Below, one piece after another: positions 6,745-45,607 of a stretch of 64,000 bases of DNA (its first letter is position 1; each line of letters begins with the position of its first letter). A program made the position numbers and the translations under genes. Where the stretch lies: contig NZ_PPGH01000034.1 in assembly GCF_002958735.1 (NCBI RefSeq), positions 372,001 to 436,000 of the forward strand, written 5' to 3'. The stretch is from Chromatium okenii. Its GTDB lineage: Bacteria; Pseudomonadota; Gammaproteobacteria; Chromatiales; Chromatiaceae. The notes under the pieces are model-generated. The model ran no database searches, was not told the DNA's origin, and was given only the letters and a program-made list of their open reading frames with translations.

Positions 6745-6776
6745 GTGTATTAAAAACTCACTACTGGAGAATGAGA

Positions 6777-8660
6777 ATGAGAATGTTTGACCGTATTAGA
6801 TTTTTTCATGTTTTGGCGCGTTGGGCTGGAATTGCTGCCTTGCTCGCTTTGACAATTCCCGCATCCGCTGTCGGTTTGAATGACACCGGAATTACTACCT
6901 GCTCAAATGCAACCGAAAACGGTTTGCCGTGTCCGGTCGCCGATTTTCCCGGTCAAGATGCTGAATTCGGCAGCAATAAATTTGATTTCACCAAACTGGA
7001 TGCAGCGGGAAATGAATTGCCCGCTGATGCCACCGATCACACCTGCGTCCGCGATAATGTCACTCGCTTAATCTGGCAAGTGAAAATCAGTGATTCAACT
7101 TTCACCTTCGATCAAACCGCTGGTTATGTCAATAACGTTAATACAACTGGCTTATGCGGTTTCAACGATTGGCGGATGCCAGACCAAAAAGAATTGATGG
7201 GAATTGCCGATCACAGCATTGGTTATCCCAGACCAACAATTGATACCAATTATTTCCCAAATACGCCAAATAGTGAATTTTGGTCGGGTTCTCCGGTTGC
7301 CGACCTCTCGGGCAGCGCGTGGGTCGTGAGTTTTGGCAATGGCCTCGCCTACTACGACGGTCGGAACAACGACAGCCACGTCCGGCTCGTCCGCGGCGGA
7401 CAGTCTTTTGATTCTTTTGTTGATAACGCGGATGGCACCGTAACGCAGTCAAATACTGGGCTGATGTGGGCAAAATGCAGCGAGGGTCAAAACGGCACGA
7501 ATTGCATTGGTGATGCAAAAACGATGAATTGGAGCGCAGCGTTAACAGCCGCGAATAATTCTAATTTGGGCGGTTATGACGATTGGCGGTTGCCCAATAT
7601 CAAAGAATTACAAGCCTTGGTGGATTACAGCCGTTATGTCACTGCTATTGATACCGACTATTTCCCGAATACACCGAATGGTGATTATTCGTGGTATTGG
7701 TCCGGCTCGCCCAACAACGCGGGCAGCGCGTGGTTCGTGCATTTCAGCTATGGCTACGCTAGCTACCTCAATCGGAACGAATACAGCCACGTTCGGCTCA
7801 TGCGGGGCGGACAATCTATTACTTATTTTTCTTTAACTGTTAAAAAAACTGGTACGGGTAGCGGTTCTATTACCAGTGCCGACAATCAAATCAATTGCGG
7901 TACAGCCTGTGCAGCGGATTTTGGAAGTGGCAGCAACGTTATTCTCACTGCTAAACCTGCAAGCGGTTCTGCTTTCAGCGGCTGGAGCGGCGCGTGTTCC
8001 AATACAACTGGCACTTGCACCGTCAAAATGTCTGACGCGCAAACCGTCACTGCTAATTTCAATCTATTGCCCAGCTATAAATTATCAATTAGCAAAAGTG
8101 GCAATGGCACTATCACCAGTTCACCAGCGGGAATTAGTTGCGGCACGACTTGCAGCAAGCAATTCAGTAGCGGCACAATCATTACATTGACTGCTAAACC
8201 GAATACTGGCGCAATGTTTAGTAAATGGACGGGCTGCATTTCGCTTGCCGCCACACCGTTGCAATGCAATATCACGCTAACCAGCAGTAAAACAGTGACA
8301 GCAGTCTTTGGAATAGCAGATATAAAAATCACTGCGATCACACTCACGCCTGCATCACCCGTTGCCAACAGCACATTTAGCGCCAAAATCACGGTAAAAA
8401 ATCAAAGCACCATGCCCGTAAATGGAGGTTATGTAGATGTGTGGACAAATAAACCGACGGTGCAAATCTGCGAAGCGGCTGGTGATAAATGGATTGACGT
8501 GGGTTTGTTGGCTGCCGGAGCGACTAAAACTCTGACTGTTAATTTGCCAACCGGGAACGTTGGCGCGAAAACACTCCGCGCTTTTGTTGATAGCTGGTGT
8601 CAAATACCGGAGTCGAATGAAGCCAACAATCAACTGACCAAAAACTATACGGTCAAATAA
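6777..8660 (+). CDS. Secreted DUF1566 x2 / InlB-repeat x2 / CARDB protein; probable DGR target
   Basis: Three in-frame ATGs occur at 6771, 6777 and 6783; 6777 has the best spacing (seven bases) from GGAG. A signal peptide ends near IPASAVG. Two DUF1566 (Lcl C-terminal, C-type-lectin-like) domains follow, each with an NDWR or DDWRLPN element and a closing VRLVRGGQS or VRLMRGGQS. Then come two InlB B-type repeats (LTVKKTGTGSGSI; LSISKSGNGTITSSPAGISCG) and a C-terminal CARDB adhesion domain. It is predicted to be exported and surface or ligand binding. The ends of both DUF1566 domains differ in a way typical of DGR variable regions (see findings). A related, broken protein lies at 37161-39411. 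Confidence 0.85.
   Translation: MRMFDRIRFFHVLARWAGIAALLALTIPASAVGLNDTGITTCSNATENGLPCPVADFPGQDAEFGSNKFDFTKLDAAGNELPADATDHTCVRDNVTRLIWQVKISDSTFTFDQTAGYVNNVNTTGLCGFNDWRMPDQKELMGIADHSIGYPRPTIDTNYFPNTPNSEFWSGSPVADLSGSAWVVSFGNGLAYYDGRNNDSHVRLVRGGQSFDSFVDNADGTVTQSNTGLMWAKCSEGQNGTNCIGDAKTMNWSAALTAANNSNLGGYDDWRLPNIKELQALVDYSRYVTAIDTDYFPNTPNGDYSWYWSGSPNNAGSAWFVHFSYGYASYLNRNEYSHVRLMRGGQSITYFSLTVKKTGTGSGSITSADNQINCGTACAADFGSGSNVILTAKPASGSAFSGWSGACSNTTGTCTVKMSDAQTVTANFNLLPSYKLSISKSGNGTITSSPAGISCGTTCSKQFSSGTIITLTAKPNTGAMFSKWTGCISLAATPLQCNITLTSSKTVTAVFGIADIKITAITLTPASPVANSTFSAKITVKNQSTMPVNGGYVDVWTNKPTVQICEAAGDKWIDVGLLAAGATKTLTVNLPTGNVGAKTLRAFVDSWCQIPESNEANNQLTKNYTVK
7293..7401 (+). other. Putative DGR variable region 1
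   Basis: This is the end of the first DUF1566 domain, coding SAWVVSFGNGLAYYDGRNND. Its variable codons are almost all NNC or NNT, unlike the AT-rich codon use just upstream. Aligned with 7700-7813, nearly all amino-acid differences come from codon positions one and two while the third base is kept. That is the pattern left by adenine-directed mutagenesis of AAC/AAT template codons. Confidence 0.6.
7700..7813 (+). other. Putative DGR variable region 2
   Basis: This is the end of the second DUF1566 domain, coding SAWFVHFSYGYASYLNRNEY. It aligns without gaps to region 1 from the GCG-TGG codons to the end. Ten of the first 19 codons after TGG encode different residues. No template repeat or reverse transcriptase gene is seen in the window, so it would be a remote target. 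Confidence 0.6.
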
Positions 8661-40303: not shown

Positions 40304-43300
40304 ATGGCAACTAAACCATTTACCGCAAACGCGGATCCAAGAGTTGGCACCCCGGGCGCTGACAAGTTTGATGGATTAGGTGGTGATGACACCATTTCTG
40401 GAATGAGTGGTAACGACACGCTCATTGGCGGTCTTGGTGATGATTCGCTCAACGGCGGCGTGGATAACGATACCCTTATTGGCGACAAAGGCACAGATAT
40501 TCTAAACGGCGACAGTGGCAATGATTCGCTCAACGGCGGTGCTGAAAATGACACTTTAGATGGTGGCAATGGGAATGACAGTTTGGATGGTGGCACTGGC
40601 GCTGACATGATGACTGGCGGTGATGGTGACGATTTATATTGGGTGGATAACGCTGCTGATAAAATCATTGAGGGCGAGTTAGGCGTCGAAACGGTGATTA
40701 GCGCAGTGAGCTTTACACTCGGCGCGAATCTCGAAAATCTTACCCTGCTGAAAACGGGAATGACCGATTTAACGGGAACGGGTAATGAGCTGAATAACAT
40801 TATCATTGGTAATGCTGGCAATAATTATCTGGATGGTAAGGCAGGTGATGATCAATTGCATGGTGGCCCTGGAACTGCCGACGATACGTTAGACGGTGGC
40901 ACTGGTAAGGATACGTTGACAGGCGGTGATGGCAATGATACGTATAAAGTGACCAATACGAATGAAGATATCATCATCGAAACAGCTAAAGATGGTGATC
41001 AGGATGTGGTGGAAAGCAACGTCACCTATGAGTTGGGCAATTATTTGGAGATGCTGACGCTCACAGGAACTGCCGCTATCAATGGTAAAGGCAATGCAGT
41101 TGCGAATGCCATTACCGGTAACGATGCCGCTAATACCCTGAAGGGTTATGAGGGCAACGATACGATTTGCGGGAATGATGGTGATGATAAAATTGATGGC
41201 GGTGAGGGTAATGATGAGATCGACGGTGGTGGCGGTTATGACATCGCTTTCTATCAATTGGGTCAAGAAAACTACACGGTTCATAAGGATGATGAAGGAA
41301 AGTGGACGGTCGAGTACATCGGTTCTGATAGCAAAAAAGATGAGGGCAAGGATTCAATTATTGGCGTGGAAGCATTCGATTTTGCCGGTGTGAAAATGGA
41401 GATTCCCGATCATGGCGGAGAGCTTCTGCCAACGGACACCACGCCGCCAGTATTTGATTCAGCTACCGTCAGCGCCAAAACGCTGGTGCTCACTTATTCC
41501 GATGACAACGCGCTCGATGATGTGAATAAACCAGCGACCACTGCGTTCAAAGTGACGGCTGGTGGCGTGGTCAATGCGGTTAAAACGGTGGCTGTGAATG
41601 CTGATGCGCACACTGTCACGCTCACGCTGACGAGGGCGGTAACAGCCAGCCAAGCGGTGACAATCACTTACGCCGATCCGACGGGCGGCGATGATGACAA
41701 CGCGATTCAAGATGTGGCGGGCAATGATGCCGCCAAGCTGGTGTCTAACATCGCACCAGCAAATCAAGCGCCGGTTATCACGCCCAAAACTTATACCGTG
41801 TCTTCCGATACGCCAGCGGGTCGAGAAGTGGCGCGGTTAAATACGGTGATCAGTGATGCTGATGGCAAGGTGGTCAAATATGCGATTACCGCCAATAACA
41901 CTGATCTTGACCGTGACGGCAAAGCTGCATTTTTATTGAATGCCAGTACTGGTGTTTTGACTGTAAATGATGTCAATGATCTGGCTTTATCTACCAGTCC
42001 TTTCGCTCTAAAAGTGCAGGCAACTGATGATGACGGCGCAACTGCTTCTGGAACAATTACCGTTAAAGTGACGGCACCAGCAAATCAAGCGCCGGTTATC
42101 ACGCCCACGACTTATACCGTGTCTTCTGATACGCCAGCGGGTCGAGAAGTGGCGCGGTTAAATACGGTGATCAGTGATGCTGATGGCAAGGTGGTCAAAT
42201 ATGCAATCACCGCCAATAACAATGATTTTGACCATGACGGCAAAGCTGCATTTTTATTGAATGCCCGCACTGGCGTCTTGACCGTAAATGATGTCAATGA
42301 TCTGGCTTTATCTACCAGTCCTTTCGCTCTAAAAGTGCAAGCAACTGATGATGACGGCGCAACTGCTTCTGGAACAATTACCGTTAAAGTGACGGCACCA
42401 GCAAATAAAGCGCCGGTTATCACGCCCACGACTTATACCGTGTCTTCTGATACGCCAGCGGGTCGAGAAGTGGCGCGGTTAAATACGGTGATCAGTGATG
42501 CTGATGGCAAGGTAGTTAAATATGCACTCACTGCGAATACCACTGATTTTGATCGCGACGGCAAAGCTGCATTTTTATTGAATGCCAGTACTGGTGTTTT
42601 GACTGTAAATGATGTCAATGATCTGGCTTTATCTACCAGTCCTTTCGCTCTAAAAGTGCAGGCAACTGATGATGACGGCGCAACTGCTTCTGGAACAATT
42701 ACCGTTAAAGTGACGGCACCGGCAAATAAAGCGCCGGTTATCACGCCCACGACTTATACCGTGTCTTCTGATACGCCAGCGGGTCGAGAAGTGGCGCGGT
42801 TAAATACGGTGATCAGTGATGCTGATGGCAAGGTGGTCAAATATGCAATCACCGCCAATAACACTGATTTTGACCGCGACGGCAAAGCTGCATTTTTATT
42901 GAATGCCAGTACTGGTATTTTGACTGTAAATGATGTCAATGATCTGGCTTTATCTACCAGTCCTTTCGCTCTAAAAGTGCAAGCAACTGATGATGACGGC
43001 GCAACTGCTTCTGGAACAATTACTGTCAACGTGACGGCACCAGCGAATAAAGCGCCAAGCGCTGAAAATGATTTTGCTGAAACGAGTGCCAATACCACCG
43101 TGCAAATCGCAGTGTTAGCAAATGACAGCGATCCTGATGGTGATTTTCTGACGATAACGAATATCTCCCCGACGGAAAATGGTGAGGTTGAAATTGTCGC
43201 TTTTGAGGATGGAAAGCAAGGAATAAGTTATACACCGTGGGGCAGTGGTTTTACTGAAATCATTAGTTACACCATCGAGGACGGTAATGGCGGAACGGCT

Positions 43301-45607
43301 ACAGCGGAGGTGACGATTGAGGTGTTGATACCAACCTATGCTCTTTTTGCCAATACGTATTCGGTTAACGAAGGTGAATGGGCAACTTTCACCGTTAATA
43401 CAACCAACGTAGCTGATTACACAATGTTGACATACACCCTAAGTGGTGTTGATGCGGCGGACATCGCTGATGAAAATCTGGACGGCGATGATAACGCCCT
43501 GACTGGTATGACAACGGTGATTGAAAACATGGCAACGATTGCGGTTATTTTGGCTGCTGATGAATTCACTGATGGCGAAGATGTGCTGACGGTGATGTTG
43601 GATAACGGCAGCGCTGCTAATTACATCGTTGTCAATGACACCAGTATTACACCGCCAGCAACCTATGCTCTTTTTGCCAATACGTATTCGGTTAACGAAG
43701 GTGAATGGGCAAATTTTACTGTTAATACAACCAACGTAGCTGATTACACAATGTTGACGTACACCCTGAGTGGTGTTGATACGGTGGACATCGTTGATGA
43801 AAATCTGGACGGCGATTATAACGCCCTGACTGGTATGACAACGGTGATTGAAAACATGGCAACGATTGCGGTTATTTTGGCTGCTGATGAATTCACTGAT
43901 GGTGAAGATGTGCTGACGGTGATGTTGGATAACAGCGATGCTGCTAACTACATCGTTGTCAATGACACCAGTACTACACCGCCAGCAACCTATGCTCTTT
44001 TTGCCAATACGTATTCGGTTAACGAAGGTGAATGGGCAACTTTCACTGTTAATACAACCAACGTAGCTGATTACACAATGTTGACGTACACCCTGAGTGG
44101 TGTTGATACGGTGGACATCGTTGATGAAAATCTGGACGGCGATTATAACGCCCTGACTGGTATGACAACGGTGATTGAAAACATGGCAACGATTACGGTT
44201 GCTTTGACCGCTGATGAATTCACTGATGGCGAAGATGTGCTGACGGTGATGTTGGATAACGGCAGCGCTGCTAATTACATCGTTGTCAATGACACCAGTA
44301 TTACACCGCCAGCTACCTATGCTCTTTTTGCCGACACATATTCAGTTAACGAAGGTGAATGGGCAACTTTCACTGTTAATACAACCAACGTAGCTGATTA
44401 CACAATGTTGACGTACACCCTGAGTGGTGTTGATACGGTGGACATCGTTGATGAAAATCTGGACGGCGATTATAACGCCCTGACTGGTATGACAACGGTG
44501 ATTGAAAACATGGCAACGATTGCGGTTGCTCTGGCTGCTGATGAATTCACTGATGGCGAAGATGTGCTGACGGTGATGTTGGATAACGGCAGCGCTGCTA
44601 ATTACATCGTTGTCAATGACACCAGTATTACACCGCCAGCTACCTATGCTCTTTTTGCCGACACATATTCAGTTAACGAAGGTGAATGGGCAACTTTCAC
44701 TGTTAATACAACCAACGTAGCTGATTACACAATGTTGACGTACACCCTGAGTGGTGTTGATACGGTGGACATCGTTGATGAAAATCTGGACGGCGATTAT
44801 AACGCCCTGACTGGTATGACAACGGTGATTGAAAACATGGCAACGATTACGGTTGCTTTGACCGCTGATGAATTCACTGATGGCGAAGATGTGCTGACGG
44901 TGATGTTGGATAACGGCAGCGCTGCTAATTACATCGTTGTCAATGACACCAGTATTACACCGCCAGCTACCTATGCTCTTTTTGCCGACACATATTCAGT
45001 TAACGAAGGTGAATGGGCAACTTTCACTGTTAATACAACCAACGTAGCTGATTACACAATGTTGACGTACACCCTGAGTGGTGTTGATACGGTGGACATC
45101 GTTGATGAAAATCTGGACGGCGATTATAACGCCCTGACTGGTATGACAACGGTGATTGAAAACATGGCAACGATTACGGTTGCTTTGACCGCTGATGAAT
45201 TCACTGATGGCGAAGATGTGCTGACGGTGATGTTGGATAACGGCAGCGCTGCTAATTACATCGTTGTCAATGACACCAGTATTACACCGCCAGCTACCTA
45301 TGCTCTTTTTGCCGACACATATTCAGTTAACGAAGGTGAATGGGCAACTTTCACTGTTAATACAACCAACGTTGCTGACGGCACAATGTTGACATACACC
45401 CTAAGTGGTTATGGCATTGATGAGACAGATATTGCTTATGGATCGTTGGAAGGCAGCATAATGATTGAGGGTGGCTCTGGTTATATTTCAGTAGAACTGG
45501 CAAATGATTTCGTTGATGAAGGAGGAGAGGAAATACTCACGCTCACTGTGCTCGATTATTTAGGCGTATGGCCTTCTGCTAGTGTCACTGTTTACGATAG
45601 CTGGTAA
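40304..45607 (+). CDS. Giant RTX / cadherin-like / Calx-beta-like repeat adhesin
   Basis: The 1767-residue, very acidic protein starts at ATG 40304 after TAGGA. The N-terminal part (about residues 15-115, 170-215 and 265-310) has GGxGxDxL Ca-binding nonapeptides such as GGLGDDSLNG and GGNGNDSLDG. An Ig-like domain (DTTPPVFDSATVSAKTLVLTY) follows, then four 107-residue cadherin-like repeats, a VCBS-like domain (AVLANDSDPDGD) and seven 109-residue Calx-beta-like repeats with YSVNEGEWATFTVNTTNVAD. No Sec signal peptide is seen, as expected for type I secretion, but no secretion genes are nearby. It should be a Ca-dependent surface or matrix adhesin. It is flanked by gene fragments. Confidence 0.9.
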   Translation: MATKPFTANADPRVGTPGADKFDGLGGDDTISGMSGNDTLIGGLGDDSLNGGVDNDTLIGDKGTDILNGDSGNDSLNGGAENDTLDGGNGNDSLDGGTGADMMTGGDGDDLYWVDNAADKIIEGELGVETVISAVSFTLGANLENLTLLKTGMTDLTGTGNELNNIIIGNAGNNYLDGKAGDDQLHGGPGTADDTLDGGTGKDTLTGGDGNDTYKVTNTNEDIIIETAKDGDQDVVESNVTYELGNYLEMLTLTGTAAINGKGNAVANAITGNDAANTLKGYEGNDTICGNDGDDKIDGGEGNDEIDGGGGYDIAFYQLGQENYTVHKDDEGKWTVEYIGSDSKKDEGKDSIIGVEAFDFAGVKMEIPDHGGELLPTDTTPPVFDSATVSAKTLVLTYSDDNALDDVNKPATTAFKVTAGGVVNAVKTVAVNADAHTVTLTLTRAVTASQAVTITYADPTGGDDDNAIQDVAGNDAAKLVSNIAPANQAPVITPKTYTVSSDTPAGREVARLNTVISDADGKVVKYAITANNTDLDRDGKAAFLLNASTGVLTVNDVNDLALSTSPFALKVQATDDDGATASGTITVKVTAPANQAPVITPTTYTVSSDTPAGREVARLNTVISDADGKVVKYAITANNNDFDHDGKAAFLLNARTGVLTVNDVNDLALSTSPFALKVQATDDDGATASGTITVKVTAPANKAPVITPTTYTVSSDTPAGREVARLNTVISDADGKVVKYALTANTTDFDRDGKAAFLLNASTGVLTVNDVNDLALSTSPFALKVQATDDDGATASGTITVKVTAPANKAPVITPTTYTVSSDTPAGREVARLNTVISDADGKVVKYAITANNTDFDRDGKAAFLLNASTGILTVNDVNDLALSTSPFALKVQATDDDGATASGTITVNVTAPANKAPSAENDFAETSANTTVQIAVLANDSDPDGDFLTITNISPTENGEVEIVAFEDGKQGISYTPWGSGFTEIISYTIEDGNGGTATAEVTIEVLIPTYALFANTYSVNEGEWATFTVNTTNVADYTMLTYTLSGVDAADIADENLDGDDNALTGMTTVIENMATIAVILAADEFTDGEDVLTVMLDNGSAANYIVVNDTSITPPATYALFANTYSVNEGEWANFTVNTTNVADYTMLTYTLSGVDTVDIVDENLDGDYNALTGMTTVIENMATIAVILAADEFTDGEDVLTVMLDNSDAANYIVVNDTSTTPPATYALFANTYSVNEGEWATFTVNTTNVADYTMLTYTLSGVDTVDIVDENLDGDYNALTGMTTVIENMATITVALTADEFTDGEDVLTVMLDNGSAANYIVVNDTSITPPATYALFADTYSVNEGEWATFTVNTTNVADYTMLTYTLSGVDTVDIVDENLDGDYNALTGMTTVIENMATIAVALAADEFTDGEDVLTVMLDNGSAANYIVVNDTSITPPATYALFADTYSVNEGEWATFTVNTTNVADYTMLTYTLSGVDTVDIVDENLDGDYNALTGMTTVIENMATITVALTADEFTDGEDVLTVMLDNGSAANYIVVNDTSITPPATYALFADTYSVNEGEWATFTVNTTNVADYTMLTYTLSGVDTVDIVDENLDGDYNALTGMTTVIENMATITVALTADEFTDGEDVLTVMLDNGSAANYIVVNDTSITPPATYALFADTYSVNEGEWATFTVNTTNVADGTMLTYTLSGYGIDETDIAYGSLEGSIMIEGGSGYISVELANDFVDEGGEEILTLTVLDYLGVWPSASVTVYDSW
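40350..40640 (+). repeat. RTX nonapeptide-coding repeat array
   Basis: About ten consecutive nine-residue units of the form GGxGxDxLx code for a Ca-binding beta-roll at the N-terminus of the adhesin. Smaller clusters lie near 40820-40940 and 41130-41240. Confidence 0.8.
41771..43054 (+). repeat. Four 321-bp cadherin-like repeats
   Basis: Units begin at 41771, 42092, 42413 and 42734, each coding 107 residues starting PVITPTTYTVSSDTPAGREV (the first has KT in place of TT). They are almost identical at DNA level, with the few changes clustered around the codons for NNTDFDRDG. Confidence 0.95.
43334..45604 (+). repeat. Seven 327-bp Calx-beta-like repeats
   Basis: Units begin at 43334, 43661, 43988, 44315, 44642, 44969 and 45296, each coding 109 residues from TYALFANTYSVNEGEW or TYALFADTYSVNEGEW. 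Units 4 to 6 are nearly identical. The last unit diverges after LTYTLSG and forms the C-terminus. Confidence 0.95.

Follow-up and report, generated by a model that had tools for sequence, protein, structure and literature searches.

What process makes two tandem domains of one protein differ in amino acid at codon after codon and yet leaves the third bases of most changed codons alone? The question is raised by a gene in a 64,000-nucleotide stretch of the Chromatium okenii LaCa genome (G000:C35:372001-436000, hereafter the window); the strain comes from Lake Cadagno (PMC6374484) and its assembly comprises 45 contigs and 3,784,749 bases. Judging from sequence comparisons, both segments are almost certainly variable regions written by a diversity-generating retroelement (DGR) in two tandem Lcl_C/DUF1566 domains of one secreted protein. 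According to established DGR biology, adenines of a template RNA would be misread during reverse transcription and the mutated complementary DNA would then replace the target segment, a process of which only the sequence outcome is seen here. The ~25 regions dispersed over the C. okenii genome would all have been written from a template close to the reconstructed sequence given below.

The original prediction of a DGR was made from the window pair, in which 10 of the 19 codons after a TGG encode different amino acids, 9 of them with an unchanged third base; our recount agrees. Upstream in the same two domains, the third base is kept in 18 of 52 amino-acid-changing codons (Fisher p=0.0016 against 9/10). 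Taken alone, the window pair would constitute moderately strong evidence, and it is the genome-wide array that makes the case decisive.

A template in a relative and the array in C. okenii

The spaced motif TGG-NNY-GTG-NNY-TTY-NNY-NNY-GGY-NNY..., with up to 3 mismatches allowed, occurs at 24 sites in the C. okenii genome, which also contains 42 Lcl_C matches, and its reversed control gives 0. A relaxed scan of the target loci yields 27 distinct sites in 18 stop-to-stop frames; since a few of these are degenerate or doubtful relatives, we put the array at ~25 variable regions in ~15 genes. The sister genome of the genus, G002, which is 99% complete, has 23 variable regions in 15 frames. A single frame holds up to four variable regions.

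The template that the original prediction had to postulate can be compared with an actual one. A same-genus Thiocystis metagenome-assembled genome (Loclat_bin-17750, G003) carries a complete DGR on G003:C144 (NZ_CAIPNF010000144), with a reverse transcriptase (RT) containing IGNLTSQ and YVDD, two flanking DUF1566 variable regions and, upstream of the RT and extending into its reading frame, the template GCGTGG AAC GTG AAT TTC AAC AAT GGC AAC GTC AAC AAC AAC AAT. When 50 C. okenii and G002 regions are aligned, the 18 adenines of this template coincide with the 18 columns of highest variability among 45 (18/18), and with either genome alone the agreement is 17/18. The base counts at the template-adenine sites of the 50 regions are A434 G246 T165 C55. 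In the nine variable codons the third base is the C or T of the template in 390/450 cases, which means that the pattern follows the template and not amino-acid selection; the adenine mutagenesis proposed from the window pair is thus borne out.

Diversifying selection of the ordinary kind, acting on residues at the surface of a lectin domain with no retroelement involved, would suit the location of the variable residues in a C-type-lectin-like domain. This explanation is extremely improbable, however, and we reject it because selection on amino acids cannot hold the third base at C in certain codons and at T in the rest (390/450), nor can it match the template adenines of another genome (18/18). 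It also cannot lower third-base diversity in the variable region, where this diversity falls from ~0.6 upstream to ~0.2 inside as first- and second-base diversity climbs. Moreover, regions with <=1 scaffold mismatch occupy domains whose upstream DNA is 37-42% different on average, and such likeness of scaffolds in diverged domains indicates that copying from one template has kept them alike.

Comparison of homologous alleles leads to the same positions. The co-assembled haplotypes C16/C36 differ by 3.0% in the flanks and by 33% in the variable region, in an alignment that has a gap of 6 bases and is shortened in its upstream part; the corresponding values are 7.5% and 28% for C14/C17, and 4.4% and 21%, and 7.3% and 28%, in two comparisons of C. 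okenii with G002. Across six homologous pairs, differences fall at 70/108 template-adenine sites against 9/162 others, with a p-value (9e-27) that is indicative only, because homology guided the choice of pairs and some loci occur in more than one of them. Three variable regions are identical between haplotypes (0/102 each) with a flank difference of 0.8-2.1%.

The many paralogues and the tandem duplications at several loci make it conceivable that gene conversion shuffles variable regions among paralogues with no rewriting. We consider this very improbable: no two non-allelic regions are alike, each being separated from its nearest neighbour by 6-18 differences in 48 bases, and conversion may mix variation limited to adenine sites but would not create it. 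Cassette shuffling was rejected on these two grounds.

Several other repeats were seen in the assembly. Arrays of a ~213-nucleotide tandem repeat lie beside C. okenii DUF1566 targets (L116:2333-6548, L114:1209-3080, L128:1-4545), and insertion-sequence-like 1.23-kb copies (99.6-100%) lie near several targets (L114:9053-10283, L122:5107-6335, L123:4573-5806, L129:10132-11368). Some small contigs are 95-99% identical to parts of longer ones (L113/L126, L117/L119, L115/L121); they permit allele comparison and would explain the 13.6% 'contamination' of the assembly.

The target gene in the window

The features of the target gene, with variable region limits set where third-base diversity drops along the domain, are the following.

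6771..8660, + strand: target gene open reading frame, 629 amino acids (open reading frame list, Pfam)
7044..7394, + strand: first Lcl_C/DUF1566 domain, 106 bits (G000:C35:379044-379394)
7278..7400, + strand: variable region 1, limits approximate; core motif 7317-7364, variable codons after TGG 7320-7322
7379..7400, + strand: conserved 3' end of variable region 1, CGTCCGGCTCGTCCGCGGCGGA (sequence)
7434..7805, + strand: second Lcl_C/DUF1566 domain, C-type-lectin-like fold, 117.6 bits (structure model)
7695..7811, + strand: variable region 2, limits approximate; core motif 7728-7775, variable codons after TGG 7731-7733
7790..7811, + strand: conserved 3' end of variable region 2, CGTTCGGCTCATGCGGGGCGGA, diverged from the usual form (sequence)

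By inspection the N-terminus of the protein resembles a signal peptide; it is followed by the two Lcl_C (DUF1566) domains, two divergent InlB B-repeats and a C-terminal CARDB domain (Pfam: Lcl_C 3.1e-64, Flg_new_2 2.4e-16, CARDB 9.5e-12). An AlphaFold model of the second Lcl_C domain has a predicted local distance difference test score (pLDDT) of 89, and its best Foldseek match is the C-terminal domain of Legionella pneumophila Lcl (8q4e; template-modelling score 0.58-0.63), with many C-type lectins matching more weakly. The C-type-lectin fold is the carrier of DGR diversity in known targets, and the anticipated placement of the variable residues in such a domain finds support in Pfam, model and structural search alike. 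The Legionella domain has 22% identity to the predicted C. okenii domain and Lcl is not known as a DGR target. The fold and the accompanying domains suggest that the target is a secreted or surface-attached binding protein.

In the complete G003 DGR, template and variable regions have a corresponding 3' end in common. The conserved 3' end of variable region 1 lies at the place of an initiation-of-mutagenic-homing site and may have a role in homing; the diverged 3' end of variable region 2 may have the same role. An Rfam scan of the target region gave no match. Elsewhere in the window there are tandem repeats of ~321 nucleotides (41753-43015, 4 copies) and ~327 nucleotides (43334-45409, 7 copies, the last partial), both 92-97% alike.

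The absent writer and the present state of the array

The window contains neither RT nor template, as had been claimed, and the proposed genome-wide search for a DGR RT and an AAC/AAT template repeat did not find them in the rest of the C. okenii assembly. Searches of this assembly with PF00078 and with the G003 RT protein gave 0 matches each, and a three-RT profile at E<=1 revealed no RT remnants. An all-adenine template, sought with up to 3 mismatches, is absent from the C. okenii and G002 assemblies; the exact reconstructed template was not found in viral and genome contig collections, nor a similar one in plasmids and phages. A shorter all-adenine pattern recovered ordinary variable regions and the G003 template across the genus and nothing else. 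In G002, RT protein and profile searches found no DGR RT but only non-DGR RTs, which by their motifs are group II-intron-like and of another non-DGR type. In a text search, the two papers on the C. okenii genome proved to contain no reference to retroelements.

With template and RT in neither assembly, the window regions are remote targets, as originally supposed, and probably orphaned ones. The genus offers a parallel for targets that outlast their writer: Thiocystis minor (G005) has an RT without its original N-terminal part and retains two variable regions, and no template was found near this RT.

The RTs show some further features. The G005 protein (C45, L075:1264-2709) is a DGR RT whose N-terminus has been replaced and whose C-terminal part carries a MutS domain I (PF01624, 5.8e-9); at the position of this domain, the C-terminal parts of P0001, an RT protein, and of P0002 are diverged. 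Viral relatives of the RT are numerous but just ~43-51% identical. Templates with a TGGAAC..AAY...AAYGGCAAY core stand directly ahead of related RTs in many proteobacteria, as well as in some Chloroflexi, Planctomycetota and other phyla (L145-L189).

Several points weigh against DGR authorship of the window regions. The two defining parts, template and RT, were sought in the C. okenii assembly without success, so that a complete DGR in the strict sense is not shown for this genome, and the assembly itself, built from early PacBio data, is 88.7% complete by CheckM (PMC6374484). The C. okenii template, likely close to GCGTGG AAC GTG AAT TTC AAC AAT GGC AAC GCC AAC AAC AAC AAT CGG, is reconstructed and not observed. 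DGR variable regions are almost always close to the 3' end of the gene (PMC7517822), a usual but not obligatory location, and those of the window gene lie 447 and 310 codons ahead of the stop; in other C. okenii targets the frame ends 26-36 codons past the motif start. Finally, the allele comparisons were made between assembled sequences. Of the two observations named in advance as contrary to the prediction, absence of RT and template from a complete genome was thus encountered in part, the assembly being incomplete, and variation spread beyond template adenines was not, since it is concentrated at these sites.

Whether the array is still being written may be judged from its scaffold. Reciprocal-best target domains of C. 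okenii and G002 are 0.18 different at upstream third positions (six pairs), from which 27% of regions would be expected to keep all 14 scaffold third bases without rewriting since the two split. In G002, 15/23 regions have an intact third-base scaffold (p=1.3e-4), and to judge by sequence these scaffolds look recently refreshed; in C. okenii the figure is 6/22, which matches the no-refresh expectation. The estimate is limited by the six pairs, by ignoring codon selection and by the early PacBio assembly. Together with the identical regions in close haplotypes, the scaffold decay suggests that the array of the LaCa lineage is, for the most part, no longer being written.

It is possible, with a probability that we place appreciably short of even, that the same DGR authorship goes with a different present state, in which the element is still active and its RT and template are present in C. 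okenii but absent from the assembly, owing to a gap or to residence on a plasmid, in a prophage or in some strains only. Such activity would accord with the incomplete assembly, with the 33% difference between the C16 and C36 variable regions at 3% flank difference, with the refreshed look of G002 scaffolds in a 99%-complete assembly that also lacks both parts, and with Thiohalocapsa sp. PB-PSB1, in which intact and deleted RT/template variants exist side by side (PMC10907252). It is opposed by two independent assemblies lacking both parts, by C. okenii scaffold decay that fits no rewriting since the split, and by recently diverged haplotypes with identical variable regions. We slightly prefer an orphaned and mostly frozen array to an assembly gap or a strain-specific writer. 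Going beyond the original prediction, the array is genome-wide and its activity in this strain seems to belong to the past: writing would have largely ended in LaCa, with the array persisting as a set of binding variants that is mostly fixed. That LaCa has truly lost RT and template, and maintains a fossil library of ~25 DGR-made binding sites that are no longer rewritten, is a stronger claim, to which we give a little less than an even chance.

Known systems and the fate of a written repertoire

Among Pfam domains, DUF1566 is reported to be the one found most often in DGR targets, for example in Vibrio cholerae and Stenotrophomonas, and multiple variable regions per template are known (PMC6642488). 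The C. okenii array is unlike them in that many regions are internal, ~310-450 codons before the stop, with two to four per frame and with InlB-like repeats and CARDB downstream. Thiohalocapsa sp. PB-PSB1, also a purple sulfur bacterium, resembles C. okenii in having several targets, diversification in trans, loci without RT or template and tandem C-type-lectin domains per protein, but it has nine DGR loci, 15 targets and RTs in its genome (PMC10907252). Loss and strain-level presence of RT or template are documented there, and its targets are putative conflict-system sensors (PMC10907252), whereas those of C. okenii are secreted adhesin-like DUF1566 proteins. The G003 DGR belongs to the same genus and shares the DUF1566/Lcl_C targets and the spacing of variable codons; its core scaffold has GTC in place of GCC and AAG in place of CGG, and it has its RT, its template and two variable regions together at a single locus, in contrast to the ~25 dispersed regions of C. 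okenii with neither part in the assembly.

DGRs are normally detected via their reverse transcriptase, and targets whose writer is located elsewhere or has been lost are therefore missed. Here the variable regions were recognised from the codon pattern alone and then confirmed by the template of a relative. A comparison of strains of this lake bacterium would date the end of writing and show whether only certain strains have the writer and whether a repertoire, once fixed, stays useful. If LaCa has indeed lost its RT and template, this would be a case in which the written repertoire outlives its writer.
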